Origin: Candidatus Brocadiaceae bacterium S225
GTDB lineage: Bacteria > Planctomycetota > Brocadiia > Brocadiales > Scalinduaceae
Assembly (NCBI GenBank): GCA_007859995.1
Contig: SMSL01000014.1
Location: forward strand, 1-64,000
DNA length: 64,000 bases
Direction: 5' to 3'
The notes under the pieces were generated by a model. That model saw only the letters and a program-made list of their open reading frames with translations, did not search any database and was not told the origin of the DNA. The stretch's first letter is position 1. Each line of letters opens with the position of its first letter. This document shows, in pieces, positions 3,279-63,288 of the stretch. The position numbers and the translations under genes are program-made.

Positions 3279-3764
3279 ATGTCTGAATATAGAATCGGGT
3301 TTGCTCAAAAATTGTCAGAAACTAGCGAAAGCATGATAGAAGAGGGGTTAAATTCTGAAGATGCTCAGAGAGCCGTTCTGTATATTTCTTGTGTTTCTTG
3401 TGAAATAGCATTGAAGGCCGCTTTGGAAAAAGCGGGAAAGACAGTTCCGGATATACGAAGGAAAAGTCATAATCTGTCTTCTTTATTAAAAGAAGTGTGC
3501 TCATGTACTGTTCTATGTGAAGTAACCAAAAATAAACTTAACAGGGTAAGGGCAACGGATATTCGAGGAGTTGTGGTTGATAGTAATTTTGCAAATGCTA
3601 CGGTTGGTCAATTACTAGAAGCGGAAGAAAATGGCGCTTCTAAATTTCCAAATGAAATTCGGTATGGCGAAGTGTTAAAACATTTTCCTGCGCCAGTAAT
3701 GTCAAAGCTGAGTATTATAGTAGTGGCTTGGGTTCGGTTACACTGGTCTGATATTCAAGCTTAA
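3279..3764 (+). CDS. HEPN-like protein
   Basis: This 161-residue helical protein has an N-terminal half reading AVLYISCVSCEIALKAALEK followed by RRKSHNLSSLLKEV. That matches the pattern of HEPN-superfamily proteins, in which a helix is followed by a 'SH.L..LL' segment near the nucleotide-binding face. HEPN proteins of this size are often toxins or accessory defence RNases. The canonical RX4-6H motif is not certain here. It stands alone behind repeat copy 1. No partner antitoxin is recognised, although the orphan gene at 3863 follows on the same strand. Confidence 0.55.
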   Translation: MSEYRIGFAQKLSETSESMIEEGLNSEDAQRAVLYISCVSCEIALKAALEKAGKTVPDIRRKSHNLSSLLKEVCSCTVLCEVTKNKLNRVRATDIRGVVVDSNFANATVGQLLEAEENGASKFPNEIRYGEVLKHFPAPVMSKLSIIVVAWVRLHWSDIQA

Positions 3765-3862
3765 TCTACCGCCGGAGCTAATCCATAGGACATGGTCGGC
3801 ATGCTTCGGTAGTCAACCACTGAGAACCTTGTGGGTAGCTCAGCTTTTGTTATCCAAAGAAA

Positions 3863-4480
3863 ATGATTACAAAAAAAGAGATACAAAAAGAACGTTCACC
3901 ATTAGGCCTAAGACAGTTTGTCTTGAGAAGAAAAAATAAAATTTCTAAAATAACAGATGAACGACATAAAGCCATGTTGAAAAATGGCTTATATAAACAG
4001 TTTTCAGATGAAATAATTCCATTGAGTTTGTTTTGCCTTAAAAATTACCAAAAGAATTTTAAAATAATTCCTGATCTCGGCGAAGAGGGATATGATGCAA
4101 TAGTAAAAGATGAAAATGGGGATCTTTATGAGAATATAGAATTAACATTCCCTCATGACGGGAAGTTTGAAGCTGATGATTCAAGAGAAACTATTAATAA
4201 AGGGATTGGAAATTTTCGTATTTATGAACCTGGAGAAGACCTTAATAATCTAAGGCCTTTTATTATGGATACATGCAGAAAAAAATTAGAGAAAGATTAC
4301 AGTGATTGCTCTTTAGTCATTATTCTTGGTTTATTTATTCGCCCATATAACCAGCACAAGAAATTATATATAAATATCTTGGAGGAAATAACAGAAGAAA
4401 TAAAGCAAAAATTTAAATTCAAAGCAAAGAGTGTTTATATATTATTTACACCTTTCAAAAAGATAATAAAAATTGGATAA
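3863..4480 (+). CDS. Hypothetical protein, possibly nuclease-like
   Basis: This is a 205-residue soluble, Lys-rich protein. Its central part (GYDAIVKDENGDLYENIELTF, followed by HDGKFEADDSRET) has the D...E.E spacing seen in some PD-(D/E)XK-like folds, but this is only a resemblance. It follows the HEPN-like gene by about 100 bp and precedes another orphan by 30 bp, so the three may be co-transcribed. The ATG at 3863 has no clear Shine-Dalgarno site. Function is unknown. Confidence 0.5.
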   Translation: MITKKEIQKERSPLGLRQFVLRRKNKISKITDERHKAMLKNGLYKQFSDEIIPLSLFCLKNYQKNFKIIPDLGEEGYDAIVKDENGDLYENIELTFPHDGKFEADDSRETINKGIGNFRIYEPGEDLNNLRPFIMDTCRKKLEKDYSDCSLVIILGLFIRPYNQHKKLYINILEEITEEIKQKFKFKAKSVYILFTPFKKIIKIG

Positions 4481-4509
4481 CCTGTAGGTGAACTTAATCA
4501 CTTTTACGC

Positions 4510-4773
4510 ATGAAAGCTGGTAAAAACAATAGTTGGAAAGAGAAGATAGACCCGGCTTTTGATAAGCCTATTAAGACGTATTTGGAATATCTACATGAAA
4601 TTGAAGATCTTCCAGATGACGGACAAGTAACATTTCAGGACGAATTCATTGAATTAATAAGTAAAAATCACAATTTGTCGGCAGATTATAAAAATGAATT
4701 TAAAAGTGTGATGCTTCAGTTTAACAAAAATGTCGGATTAGTAACTGAACATCAAAGTGAATTTTTTTTTTAA
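4510..4773 (+). CDS. Hypothetical protein, N-terminal part (separated from 4757-5533 by a T10 tract)
   Basis: These 87 residues begin with MKAGKNNSWKEKIDPAFDKP. The reading frame stops inside a run of ten T (4762-4771), and the downstream ORF starts on the other side of the same run in another frame. A one-base difference in the T tract would join the two into one protein of about 340 residues. A similar N-terminal stretch, NNSWKEKIRPAFDD, is found as a remnant at 11703. Function is unknown. Confidence 0.55.
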   Translation: MKAGKNNSWKEKIDPAFDKPIKTYLEYLHEIEDLPDDGQVTFQDEFIELISKNHNLSADYKNEFKSVMLQFNKNVGLVTEHQSEFFF

Positions 4774-5533
4774 CACAATTAATACCATAGATGAATACAA
4801 TAAATTATTGAAGGGATTACAAAAAGATGGCTCAAGAATAACTAGCTCTCAATCTTTTATACTATCCAAAATCACCTCGCTGATGCATTCCTTAATAAAA
4901 CTAGCAGGAAAACTACCAGAAGAAGAAAGCAAACAGTACTATGCTAATAAAATTAATGTATTTATTGAAGATATTCGTACAAAACATTTCATTCAGTTTC
5001 CAAAAGACTTTGAGTTAATATTACTTTCCCTTTTAATACGATTTCTTTTCAATAAACTTGATAAAAGCAAAGAAAAAGATGCTGTAAAAGAAGACATTGA
5101 ACACTTGAAAAATCCCATTGTGATTAGCACGGTGATAGGTTTTCTTTATTCGACCATTTCTCAAATCTCCCACCAGAAAGACATGCGTGAACTCCTGGAT
5201 AATGTAGAGAAGGGTGATGATAAATCGTTATTTAAGGCAATTACTATTGATAAAACTTTGACAAGTTACGAACCAATAAAAAACAGGATTATTCAAGCCC
5301 AGGCTTCCGGTGACAAATCATTTCTGAATAAGCTGGGTAAAGCAACAGCAAAAAGTCCGTTTGAAAGTGTTGGGGAACATGGCAAGACGTATGCGGTTTT
5401 GAATTTATTCTGGAATAAAGTACTTTATAAACTAAACAATCATGAGTTGTACGACTTCTTAGTATCATGCGGTTTAACCCCTCCTGCCTATCCAGATGCT
5501 TTTGATAAGTTCATGCAGAGACATATTAAATAA
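4757..5533 (+). CDS. Hypothetical helical protein, C-terminal part after the T10 tract
   Basis: This 258-residue ORF uses a GTG at 4757 as its only possible start, which lies inside the preceding ORF. It is therefore more likely the continuation of 4510-4773 than an independent gene. The protein is helical, with a hydrophobic segment around FELILLSLLIRFLF. It ends in a conserved-looking region (NLFWNKVLYKLNNHELYDFL). No family is recognised. A strong terminator lies 110 bp downstream. Confidence 0.55.
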   Translation: MNFFFNTINTIDEYNKLLKGLQKDGSRITSSQSFILSKITSLMHSLIKLAGKLPEEESKQYYANKINVFIEDIRTKHFIQFPKDFELILLSLLIRFLFNKLDKSKEKDAVKEDIEHLKNPIVISTVIGFLYSTISQISHQKDMRELLDNVEKGDDKSLFKAITIDKTLTSYEPIKNRIIQAQASGDKSFLNKLGKATAKSPFESVGEHGKTYAVLNLFWNKVLYKLNNHELYDFLVSCGLTPPAYPDAFDKFMQRHIK

Positions 5534-5641
5534 AATAATTTTAAAAGATATTTTCTTATCATGCCACAATTACAATACTTAGGACTGGACAAAAAACACC
5601 CCATTTAGTGTCCTGGTAATAAAAATAATTTTGAGTAAGTT

Positions 5642-5676
5642 AAGGCCACAGTTGAATAAACTGTGGCCTTTTTTAT
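5642..5676 (+). terminator. Rho-independent terminator
   Basis: The perfect 10-bp stem AAGGCCACAG / CTGTGGCCTT with a 9-nt loop is followed by a T-rich tail. It ends transcription of the 3.8-5.5 kb genes and sits at the left edge of the plasmid-like element. Confidence 0.9.
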
Positions 5677-5739
5677 TTTAAGGGTTAATTTGTGAAAAAG
5701 GGAGAACGGTAATTTGTCAAAATTGATTCAGGCAAAACT

Positions 5740-55203: not shown

Positions 55204-55279
<76 letters not shown>

Positions 55280-56296: not shown

Positions 56297-58066
56297 ATGG
56301 CAAAAGCCAAAAAGAACAATAACTCCGAAGAACCGATTGAAAAGCAGCTTTGGAAGGTGGCGGATAAACTCAGGAAAAATATTGATGCTGCTGAATATAA
56401 GCACATTGTATTGGGTTTGATTTTCCTGAAGTATATATCTGATGCTTTTGAAGAGTTATACAATAAATTAGAATCAGGTGAAGGAGATTATACTGGTGCT
56501 GACCCGGAAGACAAGGACGAGTACAAAGCAGAGAATGTCTTTTTCGTTCCTGAAAAAGCCCGATGGTCATATCTGCAATCAAAGGCAAAGCAACCTGATA
56601 TTGGTAAAGAGATTGATAATGCAATGGATGCCATTGAAAGGATAAATCCCTCACTGAAAGATGTTTTACCCAAGGTATACGCACGGCAGAATCTTGACCC
56701 AACAAATCTGGGTGGTTTAATTGACCTGGTTGGAAACATTGCCTTAGGAGATGCCAAGGCCAGAAGTGCTGATGTTCTTGGCCATGTGTTTGAATATTTC
56801 CTTGGTGAGTTTGCCCTGGCAGAAGGTAAAAAGGGTGGACAGTTCTATACCCCAAAAAGTGTTGTTGAATTACTGGTAGAAATGTTAGAGCCGTACAAGG
56901 GAAGGGTATTTGATCCCTGCTGTGGTTCGGGTGGCATGTTTGTGCAGTCTGAAAAGTTTGTCGCAGACCATCAGGGCAAGATCAACGATATCTCCATATA
57001 TGGACAGGAGAGCAACCAGACCACATGGCGTCTTGCAAAGATGAACCTTGCGATCAGGGGCATAGACAGTTCACAGGTAAAATGGAACAACGAAGGCTCT
57101 TTTTTGAACGACTGTCACAAGGACTTAAAGGCTGACTATGTTATCGCCAATCCTCACTTTAATGACAGCGATTGGAGCGGTGATCTCCTCCGTAAAGACG
57201 GGAGATGGAAATATGGAATCCCTCCAACAGGGAATGCTAACTATGCGTGGATACAACACTTCCTTTATCACCTCAGCCCAAGCGGTCAGGCAGGTTTTGT
57301 TCTGGCCAAAGGTTCTTTGACGTCAAAAACATCCGGGGAAGGCAGTATCAGAAAGGAATTAATTGAAGCCCGTCTGGTGGACTGTGTCGTAAACTTGCCA
57401 GCAAAGCTCTTTCTCAATACACAGATACCGGCCTGTTTATGGTTTTTAAGTAGAAACAAAGCTAATGGTAAATTCCGCAACCGTACTGATGATATCCTCT
57501 TTATTGATGCCCGGAACATGGGTCACCTGATAAACCGCAGAACACGGGAATTATCGAAAGAAGACATTGCATACATATCTGAAACCTATCACAAGTGGAG
57601 GAATGCACCCACCCCTGGCCCCTCCCGGGAGGGGACTACATTTACTCGCCCCTCCCAGGAGGGGAATACATTTTCCGACCCTTCCCAGGAGGGGAATACA
57701 TTTTCCGACCCTTCCCAGGAGGGGAATATTTCTTCTGGCTCTTCTCAGGAGGAGAGAAAATCCCTCCCTTGGGAGGGTGGCTCGGAGAGCCGGGAAAAGT
57801 CCCTCCCTGGGGAGGGTGGCTCGAAGAGACGGGAGGGGTACATGGACATCCCCGGTTTTTGTAACTCTGCATCCATTGAAAGAATAAGAGAACTCGATTA
57901 TGTACTTACACCGGGCAGATATGTTGGCCTGCCTGACGATGAAGATGATTTTGATTTTAATAAACGGTTTACTGAACTGAAAGCTGAGTTTGAAGAGCAG
58001 TTGAAAGAGGAAGCAAGATTAAACGCGCTGATTGCGGAGAATCTCAAAAAGGTGAAACTGGTATGA
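56297..58066 (+). CDS. hsdM: Type I restriction-modification methyltransferase HsdM, with repeat insertion
   Basis: This 589-residue enzyme has an HsdM N-terminal domain ([20 protein letters not shown]). SAM motif I is [11 protein letters not shown] (205-215) and [15 protein letters not shown] precedes it. The catalytic motif is NPHF (285-288) instead of NPPF, with NDSDW following as usual. Residues about 437-515 are low-complexity 10-residue repeats ([10 protein letters not shown] type). After these the ordinary C-terminus resumes ([23 protein letters not shown]). It transfers methyl to adenine as part of M2S. Upstream is a DUF3644 relic. The gene start has a usable GGAGAT site. Confidence 0.9.
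57606..57840 (+). repeat. 30-bp repeats inside hsdM
   Basis: Units of 30 nt built around CCCAGGAGGGGAATACATTT repeat about four times, followed by related CCTCCCTTGGGAGGGTGG-type palindromes. The unit is ten codons, so the reading frame stays open. A related set is at 58380-58545. Confidence 0.85.
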
Positions 58067-58118: not shown

Positions 58119-58706
58119 ATGGCGCAAAGAAATAAAAAGATAGAAGTCAAAGGTACTGAAATAACAATTGTTTCTCATGCAAAAGATGAGTATATCAGCG
58201 TTACAGATATAGCCAGGTTTAAAATCAAGCCGGATTAAACAGCTTTGTATTAACGCCTAAGCAGTGGATAGAAAAAACCAATGCTATTGGGATCGTTTCC
58301 AAAGCAGGCCGCTATGGAGGCAATTATGCACATAAAGACATTGCCTACATATCTGAAACTAATTACAAATGGAGGAATGCACCCACCCCTGGCCACTCCC
58401 AGGAGGGGACTAAATTTACTCGCTCCTCACAGGATGGGAATTCAATTACTCGTCCCTCTGAGGAGGGGAATATTTTTTCTGGCTCTTCCCGGGAAGAGCC
58501 AGAAGTCCCTCCCTGGGGAGGGTGACCCGAAGGGTCGGGAGGGGTATAAAGATATTTCCGGTTTTTGTAACTCTGCATCCATTGAAAGAATAAGAGAACT
58601 CGATTATGTGCTTACACCGGGAAGGTATGTTGGCTTGCCTGATGAACTAAAGACTTCTCTGCCGAGTATCGAGGAGATTGAGGCGGGACTGAGTGGAGGA
58701 GAATAA
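58119..58706 (+). pseudogene. Chimeric pseudogene: KilA-N domain joined to a second hsdM 3' end
   Basis: The first 39 codons (58119-58238) are a KilA-N N-terminus (ITIVSHAKDEYISVTDIARF) ending in a stop. In the next frame follows [20 protein letters not shown], then [13 protein letters not shown], the C-terminal part of KilA-N with the middle deleted. This runs without a break into [16 protein letters not shown], which is the hsdM C-terminal sequence, then the same repeats, another frameshift and [23 protein letters not shown] again. The junction falls at a short shared motif (HKDIA in KilA-N, EDIAY in HsdM), pointing to homologous or illegitimate recombination. Confidence 0.8.
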
Positions 58707-58712
58707 ATAACG

Positions 58713-59126
58713 ATGACTGAATATGATAAACTGAAGAGATCATTACAGCACCTTGAGCAGCAGTACGCGAACTATGTATCAATGAATGAGCGTAAATATC
58801 TCTCTGATCTGGATAAGGATGCAATAAGTGAATCGGTTGTGCGAAGATTTAAACCCTGTTATGACACTCTCTGGAAACACCTGAAAAAGTATCTGGAAGA
58901 AGAGGTCGGATTAGTAGCGCCTGATAGCCCTAAACCAATTTTCCGTTTAGCATATGAAAACAATATTATTGATGAGGTTGAGAATTGGTTTGAGTACACA
59001 CAGGCAAGGATTGATACTGCTCATGACTATAGTGAAGAGAAGTTTATGTCTACTCTGGAAAAGACAGGAGATTTCATACGGGACGCAATTGAACTGTATA
59101 AAGTGATGACAAAGGAATCATGGTAA
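58713..59126 (+). CDS. HepT-like HEPN toxin (HI0074 family)
   Basis: This 137-residue helical protein is of the 'nucleotidyltransferase substrate-binding' (HI0074) HEPN family. It has the motif RIDTAHDY (Arg-99, His-104, Tyr-106), which is exactly the RX4HXY pattern of HepT toxins. In studied HepT/MntA systems the toxin is an RNase and its Tyr is AMPylated by the antitoxin. It has a strong GGAGGAG site and its last codons overlap the start of the MNT-HsdS gene by 7 bp. The two therefore form one coupled operon. Confidence 0.9.
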   Translation: MTEYDKLKRSLQHLEQQYANYVSMNERKYLSDLDKDAISESVVRRFKPCYDTLWKHLKKYLEEEVGLVAPDSPKPIFRLAYENNIIDEVENWFEYTQARIDTAHDYSEEKFMSTLEKTGDFIRDAIELYKVMTKESW

Positions 59127-60616
59127 TAGAGAACCAAATTGATGTTGAACCGGAACACCTGAAGCTCATTAAAAAAATTCTTAAACGGCATATTCCCTAT
59201 AAAACGGTGTGGGCTTATGGTTCACGGGTCAATTGGACAGCAAACCAATTTTCTGATCTGGATTTAGTGGTTTTTGAGGTTAATACCGTGAAACTGGGAG
59301 AACTGAAGGAAGAGTTTGCCGAAAGTGATCTGCCTTTTTCCATTGATATTATGTCTTGGGAAAAGATACCGGAAAAATTTAAGAATAAAATTTGTGAAAA
59401 GTATGTGATATTGCAGAAAAAACCGGAATTAGAAGGTTGGAAAGAATGCAGGTTGGGAAATGTTGCTTCTAAAATCGGCAGTGGTGCAACTCCCAGAGGC
59501 GGTTCAAACGCATACAAGGATTTTGGCGTTTCATTAATTAGAAGTCAGAATGTATTAGATTTTGAGTTTTCACGATCTGGACTGGCATTTATTGATGACT
59601 CACAAGCTAATGGATTAAAAAATGTTGAGATTCAGGAAAATGATCTCCTCTTAAATATTACTGGTGACAGCGTTGCAAGGTGTTGTATTGTTCCTAAGAA
59701 TATATTACCTGCAAGAGTAAATCAACATGTGTCTATTATTCGTTTAAATCCTGAGTTGGCTGATTACAAATTTGTATTTTATTCTTTGCAGTATTTAAAA
59801 GATGAATTACTGATGCAAGCGGAGATTGGTGCTACAAGAAAAGCTTTAACAAAGGTAATGGTTGAAAATTTAGAAATTTTTCTGCCCTCTCTCCCCGAAC
59901 AAAAAGCCATCGCTTCTGTCCTTTCCAGTCTCGACGACAAAATAGACATGCTCCACCGCCAGAACAAAACCCTCGAAGCAATGGCAGAAACACTTTTCAG
60001 GCAGTGGTTTGTGGTGGAGGCGAAGGGAGATTGGGAGGAAGGTTGTTTAAGTGATATTATTGATATAAATCCAGCGTATCAACTTAAAAAGAGAACGCTA
60101 GCTCCATATCTTGAAATGAGTAATGTGAGTAATACCACTTTTCATCCAGAAGGCTGGTATATGCGTGAGTTTACGTCGGGAATGAGGTTTAAAAATGGAG
60201 ATACGCTTTTAGCAAGAATAACTCCATGTCTTGAAAATGGGAAGACTTGTTTTGTTACTTTTTTAAAAGATAAAGAAATTGGTTGGGGTTCTACAGAATA
60301 CATTATTATGCGGATGAAGAAACCATTCCACGCATTTATTTCATATGTTTTGGCAAATGATAAAGATTTTAGGGATTTTGCAATTAGCAGCATGTCTGGT
60401 TCAAGCGGAAGGCAAAGAGCACAAGCTGATGTATTAAAGGAATACGAAATAAAAATACCTCCTTTGGAATTAATTGAAAAAATAAATCTTCAATTGGAAG
60501 GAATTCTTCCAAGACTCATAATAAACGCAAATCAAATTTACACCTTAGAAAAACTAAGAGATACTCTATTGCCAATATTGATGAGTGGTGAAGTTAGGGT
60601 TAAATATGGAAATTGA
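59120..60616 (+). CDS. hsdS: MntA-type nucleotidyltransferase fused to type I specificity subunit HsdS
   Basis: The 498-residue protein has two parts with no stop between them. Residues 1-98 are a minimal nucleotidyltransferase. YGSR (Gly-34, Ser-35) and SDLDL (Asp-46, Asp-48) give the MntA pattern GSX10DXD, and a third acidic residue is in FSIDIM (Asp-76). From about residue 104, EGWKECRLGNVASKIGSGAT begins a normal HsdS. There are two target-recognition domains (ending near 245 and 485), a central conserved coil (LPEQKAIASVLSSLDDKIDM, HRQNKTLEAMAETLFRQWF) and a C-terminal coil (YTLEKLRDTLLPILMSGEVRV). HsdS sets the DNA target of the methyltransferase and restriction enzyme. Confidence 0.92.
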   Translation: MVIENQIDVEPEHLKLIKKILKRHIPYKTVWAYGSRVNWTANQFSDLDLVVFEVNTVKLGELKEEFAESDLPFSIDIMSWEKIPEKFKNKICEKYVILQKKPELEGWKECRLGNVASKIGSGATPRGGSNAYKDFGVSLIRSQNVLDFEFSRSGLAFIDDSQANGLKNVEIQENDLLLNITGDSVARCCIVPKNILPARVNQHVSIIRLNPELADYKFVFYSLQYLKDELLMQAEIGATRKALTKVMVENLEIFLPSLPEQKAIASVLSSLDDKIDMLHRQNKTLEAMAETLFRQWFVVEAKGDWEEGCLSDIIDINPAYQLKKRTLAPYLEMSNVSNTTFHPEGWYMREFTSGMRFKNGDTLLARITPCLENGKTCFVTFLKDKEIGWGSTEYIIMRMKKPFHAFISYVLANDKDFRDFAISSMSGSSGRQRAQADVLKEYEIKIPPLELIEKINLQLEGILPRLIINANQIYTLEKLRDTLLPILMSGEVRVKYGN

Positions 60617-61082
60617 TAATTATCAAAATATAATTAGTTATTTAAATAAGAAAAAAAGGAGGAAACATCTCCTTCTGGGTAATGGATTCAGCATGTCTTA
60701 TGATAAGAAAATATTTTCTTATAATGCGTTTAGTAACTTTATCAAAAAAACAGATAATCAATTATTGCGGAAATTGTTTGGTATTATAAAAACTTGCAAT
60801 TTTGAACTGATTATGAGTCAACTTGATGTTTTTTATCAACTTGCTGTTGAGTTTGTTGCAGATAAGGGCTTAGCTGATAAAATTACGATAGCTACGAAGT
60901 CCTTGAAAGAGAAACTTGTTGATGCCATTTCCGAATTGCATCCAGAGCAGGTTTTTAAAATACCGGGTCTGAGTTGGTCACATATACGGATAAGATTGAA
61001 GCTCATGTTTAAAAAATCCAACCGCGACATGGAAAATACTAGAGAAAGTTCTTCAGGAAACAATCTGCAACTCAAAAGATAA
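60609..61082 (+). pseudogene. DUF4917 protein, truncated
   Basis: Using the ATG at 60609 (MEIDNYQ), this encodes a DUF4917 N-terminus: KHLLLGNGFSMSYDKKIFSY, then a helical region ending HPEQVFKIPG. The family is normally about twice as long (SIR2-like fold). After about residue 125 the sequence is unrelated and stops. It overlaps the end of hsdS by 8 bp. Another frame over 61000-61130 looks coding (NPTATWKILEKVLQETICNS), so a second gene end may be fused here. Confidence 0.6.
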
Positions 61083-62937: not shown

Positions 62938-63288
62938 ATGAAAAGAATAACTGAATTAACCATCGAACAATTCGGAATCGAACCCTTTGAAAAACAGGAT
63001 TATCAGTACATATTTGCCCCATCCATTGCCCCGGACAGTGACACACCGGAAAGAGAGTCTTTTGAGGATGTGCTGTTAATAGAACGTTTACAAACAGCGA
63101 TCAGCAGAATTAACCCTGAAATTCTAGAGGATATTAGAGAAAACGCTGTAAAACAGATATTACGGCTAAACCCTCCAGAGTTGATTACCAATAATGAGGT
63201 CTTTCACCGTATGCTTACAGAAGGAATAAAAGTAAGTTTCCAGAAGGACGGTAGTAACCGTGGTGATTCAGTCATAGAGGTAAATTGA
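62938..63288 (+). pseudogene. Type I restriction subunit HsdR, N-terminal fragment
   Basis: The 116 residues match the beginning of HsdR: RESFEDVLLIERLQTAISRI, then NPPELITNNEVFHRMLTEGI and KVSFQKDGSNRGDSV. A complete HsdR has about 1000 residues with the PD-(D/E)XK nuclease and helicase. A stop follows at 63286-63288, immediately before the next gene (TGAATG). Either hsdR is broken, or this is a duplicated stub and the intact gene lies beyond the window. Confidence 0.85.

Follow-up and report, generated by a model that had tools for sequence, protein, structure and literature searches.

A type I restriction operon with a HEPN gene and a predicted antitoxin-type nucleotidyltransferase domain fused to the specificity subunit HsdS

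A type I restriction operon lies near the end of a 64,000-nucleotide stretch of the genome of Candidatus Brocadiaceae bacterium S225 (contig SMSL01000014.1, positions 1 to 64,000; hereafter, the window). Within this operon, a gene for a HEPN protein, the predicted toxin, directly precedes an open reading frame (ORF) in which a nucleotidyltransferase (MNT) domain is fused to the specificity subunit HsdS (Table 1). The fused ORF (MNT::HsdS; 59120-60616, 498 codons) starts with an ATG at 59120, within the end of the HEPN gene (stop codon at 59124-59126), and encodes the MNT domain followed by a complete HsdS with two target-recognition domains (TRDs); in most relatives, the overlap is 4 or 8 bp. 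The HEPN protein contains the sequence RIDTAHDY, an RX4HXY motif (R99, H104 and Y106; encoded at 59007-59030), and the MNT domain carries G34-S35-X10-D46-X-D48 (G34-S35 at 59219-59224, D46xD48 at 59255-59263), with D76 as the third Asp (59345-59347). In characterized pairs, an MNT with the GSX10DXD motif adds AMP to the Tyr of RX4HXY, which silences the HEPN RNase (PMC7641770, PMC11586414); an RX4HXY HEPN adjoining a GSX10DXD MNT, the sequence signature of a type VII HEPN/MNT pair, is what we find here.

The initial annotation had recognized a HepT-like HEPN reaching 7 bp into a gene that joins a GSX10DXD domain to a full HsdS, and this assignment holds for both ORFs. The HEPN protein passes the gathering score of PF08780 (70.7 vs 31.8 bits), and pairs of PF08780 and PF01909 have been grouped with active Class I (PMC7641770). 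No other domain is present in the HEPN ORF, including a PrrC-type fusion to an ABC-type nucleoside triphosphatase (NTPase). In the fused protein, residues 15-100 match PF18765 (7e-10) and PF01909 (2e-6), and PF01420 matches downstream in two stretches (5e-22). The PADLOC library labels the fusion only as HsdS and assigns the neighbouring toxin a weak, unrelated CARF_HEPN match.

Structure comparisons agree with these assignments. When solved structures were searched by sequence, HI0073 of Haemophilus influenzae (1no5, 9e-21) was the closest to the MNT domain, and the HEPN protein matched Thermus proteins 1wwp (4e-6) and 1wty (5e-6), followed by HI0074 (1jog, 1.5e-5) and a Legionella HEPN toxin. 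The AlphaFold model of the fusion (predicted local distance difference test score, pLDDT, 90.9; predicted template modelling score, pTM, 0.80) has the order MNT, TRD1, helix, TRD2, helix, and a fold search with it retrieved HsdS structures, HI0073 (template modelling score, TM, 0.92 over the domain) and the MNT antitoxin 8xeo. The HEPN model (pLDDT 94.2) retrieved HI0074 (TM about 0.8), the Legionella HEPN-MNT complex 8xeh and the AMPylated HEPN 8xdj.

Table 1. Features of the restriction operon within the window (positions are those of the window)
Feature	Position	Strand	Evidence
hsdM, type I methyltransferase subunit	56297..58066	+	PF02384 8e-106, PF12161 1e-26
Remnant ORF: repeat-rich copy of the hsdM 3' end with a YhcG/DUF1016-like tail ([15 protein letters not shown])	58281..58706	+	Weak N6_Mtase match
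HEPN protein, predicted RNase toxin, 137 aa	58713..59126	+	PF08780 1.5e-19; model matches HI0074 1jog and the Legionella HEPN-MNT complex 8xeh
Overlap of HEPN stop with MNT::HsdS start, 7 bp	59120..59126	+	Sequence
MNT (nucleotidyltransferase) domain, residues 1-100	59120..59419	+	PF18765/PF01909; HI0073 1no5 9e-21; TM-score 0.92 to 1no5
HsdS TRD1 (first target-recognition domain)	59438..59884	+	PF01420; secondary structure of the model
HsdS central conserved helix	59891..60013	+	Model helix 258-298; conserved block in pairwise profiles
HsdS TRD2 (second target-recognition domain)	60017..60457	+	Second PF01420 stretch; model
HsdS C-terminal conserved helix	60464..60583	+	Model helix 449-488; invariant L484-P485
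Truncated duplicate of the hsdR start	62938..63288	+	PF04313; 84% over 300 nt to the hsdR start

The initial annotation also suggested looking for HsdS proteins with an N-terminal MNT and an upstream HI0074-type gene in other genera, and regarded a fusion confined to this genome, or an assembly artefact, as fatal to its reading. A scan of about 85,000 genomes yielded 80 loci that were kept, and profile searches of these, together with loci from two phylum surveys and from Poribacteria, gave 91 fused records that represent 74 distinct loci (the window included) in at least 14 named phyla. The domain calls in this census come from small home-made profiles, with representatives checked against Pfam, and most loci are from metagenome-assembled genomes (MAGs). 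The gene order of the system is hsdM-HEPN-MNT::hsdS-hsdR. A HEPN gene lies directly upstream of the fusion in 70 of the 74 loci; RX4HXY is intact in 66, and GSX10DXD is intact in at least one copy in all 74. The methyltransferase gene hsdM is present in 64/74 and hsdR in 52/74, several contigs ending early. Among the four loci that lack a HEPN gene, one is at a contig end (L097), and three (L075, L079 and L137) retain a 3'-terminal piece of a HEPN gene, with the part that runs into MNT. The gene found upstream of MNT::HsdS in the place of HEPN in L075 encodes a protein that appears Abi_2-like by eye, and L136 has tandem HEPN genes before MNT::HsdS, the first without the RX4H histidine.

The closed plasmid pZMOB01 of cultured Zymomonas mobilis ATCC 10988 carries hsdM, HEPN, MNT::hsdS and hsdR consecutively and fully annotated, spanning the record origin. 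Other plasmids of the same species, in strains NCIMB 11163 and ATCC 29191, encode standalone HEPN/MNT pairs (L188 and L189) with which the fused one can be conveniently compared. The same HEPN and MNT::HsdS pair is also present in a Phycisphaera MAG of the same phylum as the window genome. Fused ORFs were detected in 5 of 251 Chloroflexota genomes and in 12 of 398 genomes of the second phylum survey, each set including at least one genome chosen beforehand, and in 15 of 85 genomes of Poribacteria. The Poribacteria encode two kinds of HI0074-like HEPNs: the restriction kind precedes MNT::HsdS in 15/15 cases, and the other HI0074-like HEPNs examined do so in 0/15, each being accompanied by a small, separate MNT; thus, the restriction-associated pair is a distinct lineage rather than the product of random fusion. 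Recurrence in 74 distinct loci excludes chance and, together with the closed Zymomonas plasmid, rejects a frameshift or assembly artefact. One further candidate, a 556-codon open frame in L009, turned out to be an ordinary HsdS, and no MNT relative was found in the viral contigs and phage records searched.

Both partners are conserved in the residues expected to matter. Across 50 fusions, G34, S35, D46 and D48 are invariant and D76 is conserved in at least 90%; across 45 HEPNs, Tyr106 is invariant, and R99 and H104 are conserved in at least 90%. For moderately diverged pairs (very close ones being uninformative), the ratio of nonsynonymous to synonymous substitution rates is mostly 0.06-0.2 for HEPN, 0.08-0.25 for MNT and about 0.1 for HsdM, and HEPN and MNT are therefore under purifying selection. 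The recognition part of the fusion behaves differently. In the pair L107/L051, identity is 96% for HEPN, 89% for MNT and 95% for HsdM vs 35% for HsdS, and block profiles show identities of 80-100% in both MNT and the central helix, 10-30% in the intervening TRD1 and low values again in TRD2. MNT and the central helix stay in place while TRD1 and TRD2 are replaced; therefore, MNT is the constant 5' arm of TRD1 exchange, so that specificity can change without breaking the antitoxin.

The pattern of decay is informative as well. An intact MNT accompanies a lost HEPN motif or gene in L063, L095, L129, L057/L172, L075, L079, L137 and L168; the lesions include loss of the Arg (L063), His to Arg (L095, where hsdM and hsdS are also broken), Tyr to Asp (L129) and a frameshift (L057/L172). 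In L129, from the Chloroflexota survey genome G506, hsdM is directly preceded by a HEPN and a separate MNT; the HEPN with Tyr changed to Asp is an additional one, located before MNT::hsdS in the same operon. Loss of HEPN with retention of MNT is the direction expected for a toxin and its antitoxin. There is one counterexample: a broken MNT motif (D48G) with an intact HEPN motif occurs only in L096/L169, apparently one genome with an identical protein, in which HsdS is truncated; the motifs of its close relatives L080/L170 are intact.

Another distinctive locus is L058, in a MAG of Magnetococcales. Its HEPN and MNT motifs are intact whereas HsdS lacks both TRDs, and hence the toxin can be tolerated without a complete HsdS, at least at this locus. 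Beside this MNT::HsdS remnant, at 3632-5695, a second HEPN precedes an HsdM that carries an MNT at its N-terminus, with MNT, HsdM_N and N6_Mtase in one 687-codon ORF (confirmed with Pfam). A search of 48 Magnetococcia genomes detected no second MNT::HsdM fusion, leaving L058 as the sole case found.

In the window genome, hsdS is followed by genes for DUF4917, GmrSD, a truncated duplicate of the hsdR start, AlbA_2 and RhuM, and then the full hsdR (contig C14, 65792-69694, beyond the window), which encodes a protein of 1300 aa with full HsdR domains. The apparent absence of hsdR, of which the window holds only a 116-aa piece, was therefore rejected. With hsdM, the two-TRD hsdS and hsdR in one operon, the type I restriction-modification operon is complete, and defence-like cargo has been inserted ahead of hsdR. 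The remnant ORF between hsdM and the HEPN gene shares a 143-nt, 90% identical duplicate with hsdM, and in a Phycisphaera relative (L008) its place is taken by an intact YhcG gene with the same tail. Next to the inserted genes lie incomplete copies of the hsdM end (90%) and of the hsdR start (84%), which suggests that the cargo entered via duplication or recombination. An in-frame repeat family is common to hsdM, where it forms an insert at about 57600-57860 (repeat family D1/D2; peptide PSQEGN...), and the remnant ORF (58360-58540). Residues 363-469 of the hsdR product (gene at 1792-5694 in L045) are an in-frame DUF559 nuclease-like insert, with copies of a PTPNPSQEG-type palindromic repeat nearby; no other DUF559 was found in this genome. 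The DUF4917 gene (60585-61082, 165 aa) appears truncated relative to the 336-long PADLOC model PDC-S21, and a tRNA-Ala (GGC) gene at 55204-55279, about 1 kb upstream of hsdM, is a possible island border.

Sequence comparison establishes the operon hsdM-HEPN-MNT::hsdS-hsdR, its catalytic motifs and its conservation across phyla. On this basis, we consider it probable that the locus is a type I restriction operon with a built-in, type VII-like HEPN/MNT toxin-antitoxin pair whose antitoxin enzyme makes up the N-terminal domain of HsdS. By analogy with the characterized HepT/MntA pairs, HEPN would be an RNase toxin that the MNT domain silences by AMPylating Tyr106, beside the RNase motif. The gene overlap suggests that HEPN and MNT::HsdS are translationally coupled, such that each new toxin molecule would meet newly made, HsdS-borne antitoxin, and the cell would survive only while it goes on making the specificity subunit. 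If the locus were lost, or if an infection shut off host expression, the toxin would be left unmodified and would arrest the cell, an outcome that would both stabilize the restriction system and back it up.

Several observations weigh against this interpretation. Most of the fused loci come from metagenome assemblies. The pair falls below the NCBIfam cut-offs: HEPN scores 51.4 bits against the 55.8 of TIGR01987 (HI0074), and the strict HepT (NF047751) and MntA (NF047752) models reach 15.6 and 31.1 bits, respectively, against a cut-off of 60. The broken MNT motif of L096/L169 beside an intact HEPN motif is not expected with a lethal toxin, except where binding by itself is enough or the locus is not expressed. 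Finally, physical fusion is not required, given that unfused operons exist in Acetobacter and Betaproteobacteria with the same gene order; on Acetobacter plasmids, hsdM, HEPN, MNT, hsdS and hsdR are separate, mostly overlapping genes.

These unfused operons fit the strongest of the alternatives, namely, that type I operons were colonized by a mobile HEPN/MNT pair and that read-through into the following gene produced fusions with ordinary toxin-antitoxin activity only. Swapping of TRD1 cassettes at the MNT/hsdS border could help read-through: in Acetobacter, this border lies in the last MNT codons, with C-terminal MNT residues differing between alleles, and so offers a route between the fused and unfused states. 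On the MNT tree, the two states are interspersed with 22 changes and many forks unresolved; based on 100 columns, this tree is too weak for counting origins, although its starred branches force at least two changes, and the rows labelled unfused that end at contig ends (L061, L074 and L114) are probably cut fusions. The fused state is nevertheless clustered on the same tree (22 changes vs about 40 in shuffles), both partners have been kept intact over long distances in many phyla, and every restriction-type pair of Poribacteria is fused. We therefore judge a purely incidental fusion to be unlikely, if worth keeping in mind.

A lower probability still attaches to the guard model of the initial annotation, similar to PrrC, in which the MNT on HsdS would report the state of the M2S complex, and its inhibition, disassembly or degradation by a phage would free or activate the HEPN RNase. 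PrrC/PrrI provides the precedent, HEPNs linked to restriction systems have been proposed in general terms to be suicide backups (PMC3710099), and the repeated joining of MNT to HsdS, and in one case to HsdM, suggests that proximity to the methyltransferase is important. However, AMPylation is covalent in characterized MNTs, so that toxin already modified should stay off and outlast HsdS; the MNT domain is N-terminal and would be made even when HsdS is truncated; L058, with its TRD-less HsdS, speaks against a strict sensor; and unfused versions of the same operon exist. Because the mark is covalent and MNT is translated before the TRDs, and in view of L058 and the unfused operons, we prefer retention of the locus and backup under expression shut-off over a strict guard of M2S. 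Slightly more doubtful than that guard is a variant in which the methyltransferase complex itself is the antitoxin, and MNT activity would change, or AMP removal would be favoured, in response to anti-restriction proteins, when HsdM is lost or when a switch of specificity fails, unleashing HEPN through reversible nucleotidylation. Least probable is that HEPN is no longer a toxin and that the pair adjusts assembly or restriction (e.g., alleviation after acquisition) by nucleotidylating HEPN, HsdS or HsdM: HI0074/HI0073 was originally interpreted as a two-part nucleotidyltransferase and MNT is kept in loci without HEPN (L079 and L137), but RX4H is retained in almost all the HEPNs, whereas HEPN domains recruited merely for binding typically lose it (PMC3710099).

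The fused architecture differs from each of the known systems that it resembles. Like the type VII HepT/MntA pairs (Shewanella SO_3166/SO_3165 and Legionella HEPN-MNT), the present one combines overlapping genes, matching folds and the two motifs, but the HEPN gene comes first, whereas in Shewanella the MNT gene does, and MNT is a domain of HsdS inside a restriction operon. HI0073/HI0074 (PF01909/PF08780) includes the closest solved relative of the MNT domain and one of the closest of HEPN, but HI0073 is a separate protein of 114 residues that is not fused to HsdS. PrrC, the anticodon nuclease of the type Ic PrrI operon, is likewise a HEPN RNase among hsd genes and a second line of defence, but it is kept in check by an ABC-type NTPase and by its association with the restriction complex, whereas here a predicted nucleotidyltransferase sits on HsdS, with no NTPase. 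Restriction-linked HEPNs have been proposed as suicide backups, and fusions of the toxin to nucleases, helicases and ATPases have been listed (PMC3710099); in such fusions to restriction nucleases, helicases and DUF499 ATPases (PMC3710099; type 1 BR, PMC12839542), the HEPN RNase is similarly a suicide effector, but there the toxin is the fused partner, and here it is the antitoxin, joined to the specificity subunit. For the PF08780 family, occasional fusions to MNT and methylase domains are mentioned, but not to HsdS (PMC3710099), and text searches of PMC2701414, PMC7641770 and PMC12839542 likewise turned up no reference to an HsdS that carries an MNT domain. In agreement with the initial annotation, which knew of no such layout, we found none in the open-access literature searchable as text (figures, supplements, subscription papers and preprints aside), and within these bounds, the MNT::HsdS architecture is undescribed.

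Thus, in at least 14 phyla, a predicted antidote enzyme is recurrently built into the very subunit with which a restriction enzyme recognizes DNA, and the annotated example is named simply HsdS. If the proposed function is correct, restriction, epigenetic switching of specificity and cell suicide would meet on one polypeptide, and it would become directly testable whether restriction systems serve as addiction modules or as guards, a long-standing question, with the closed-plasmid example of Zymomonas mobilis ATCC 10988, a harmless organism that is practical to work with, at hand.
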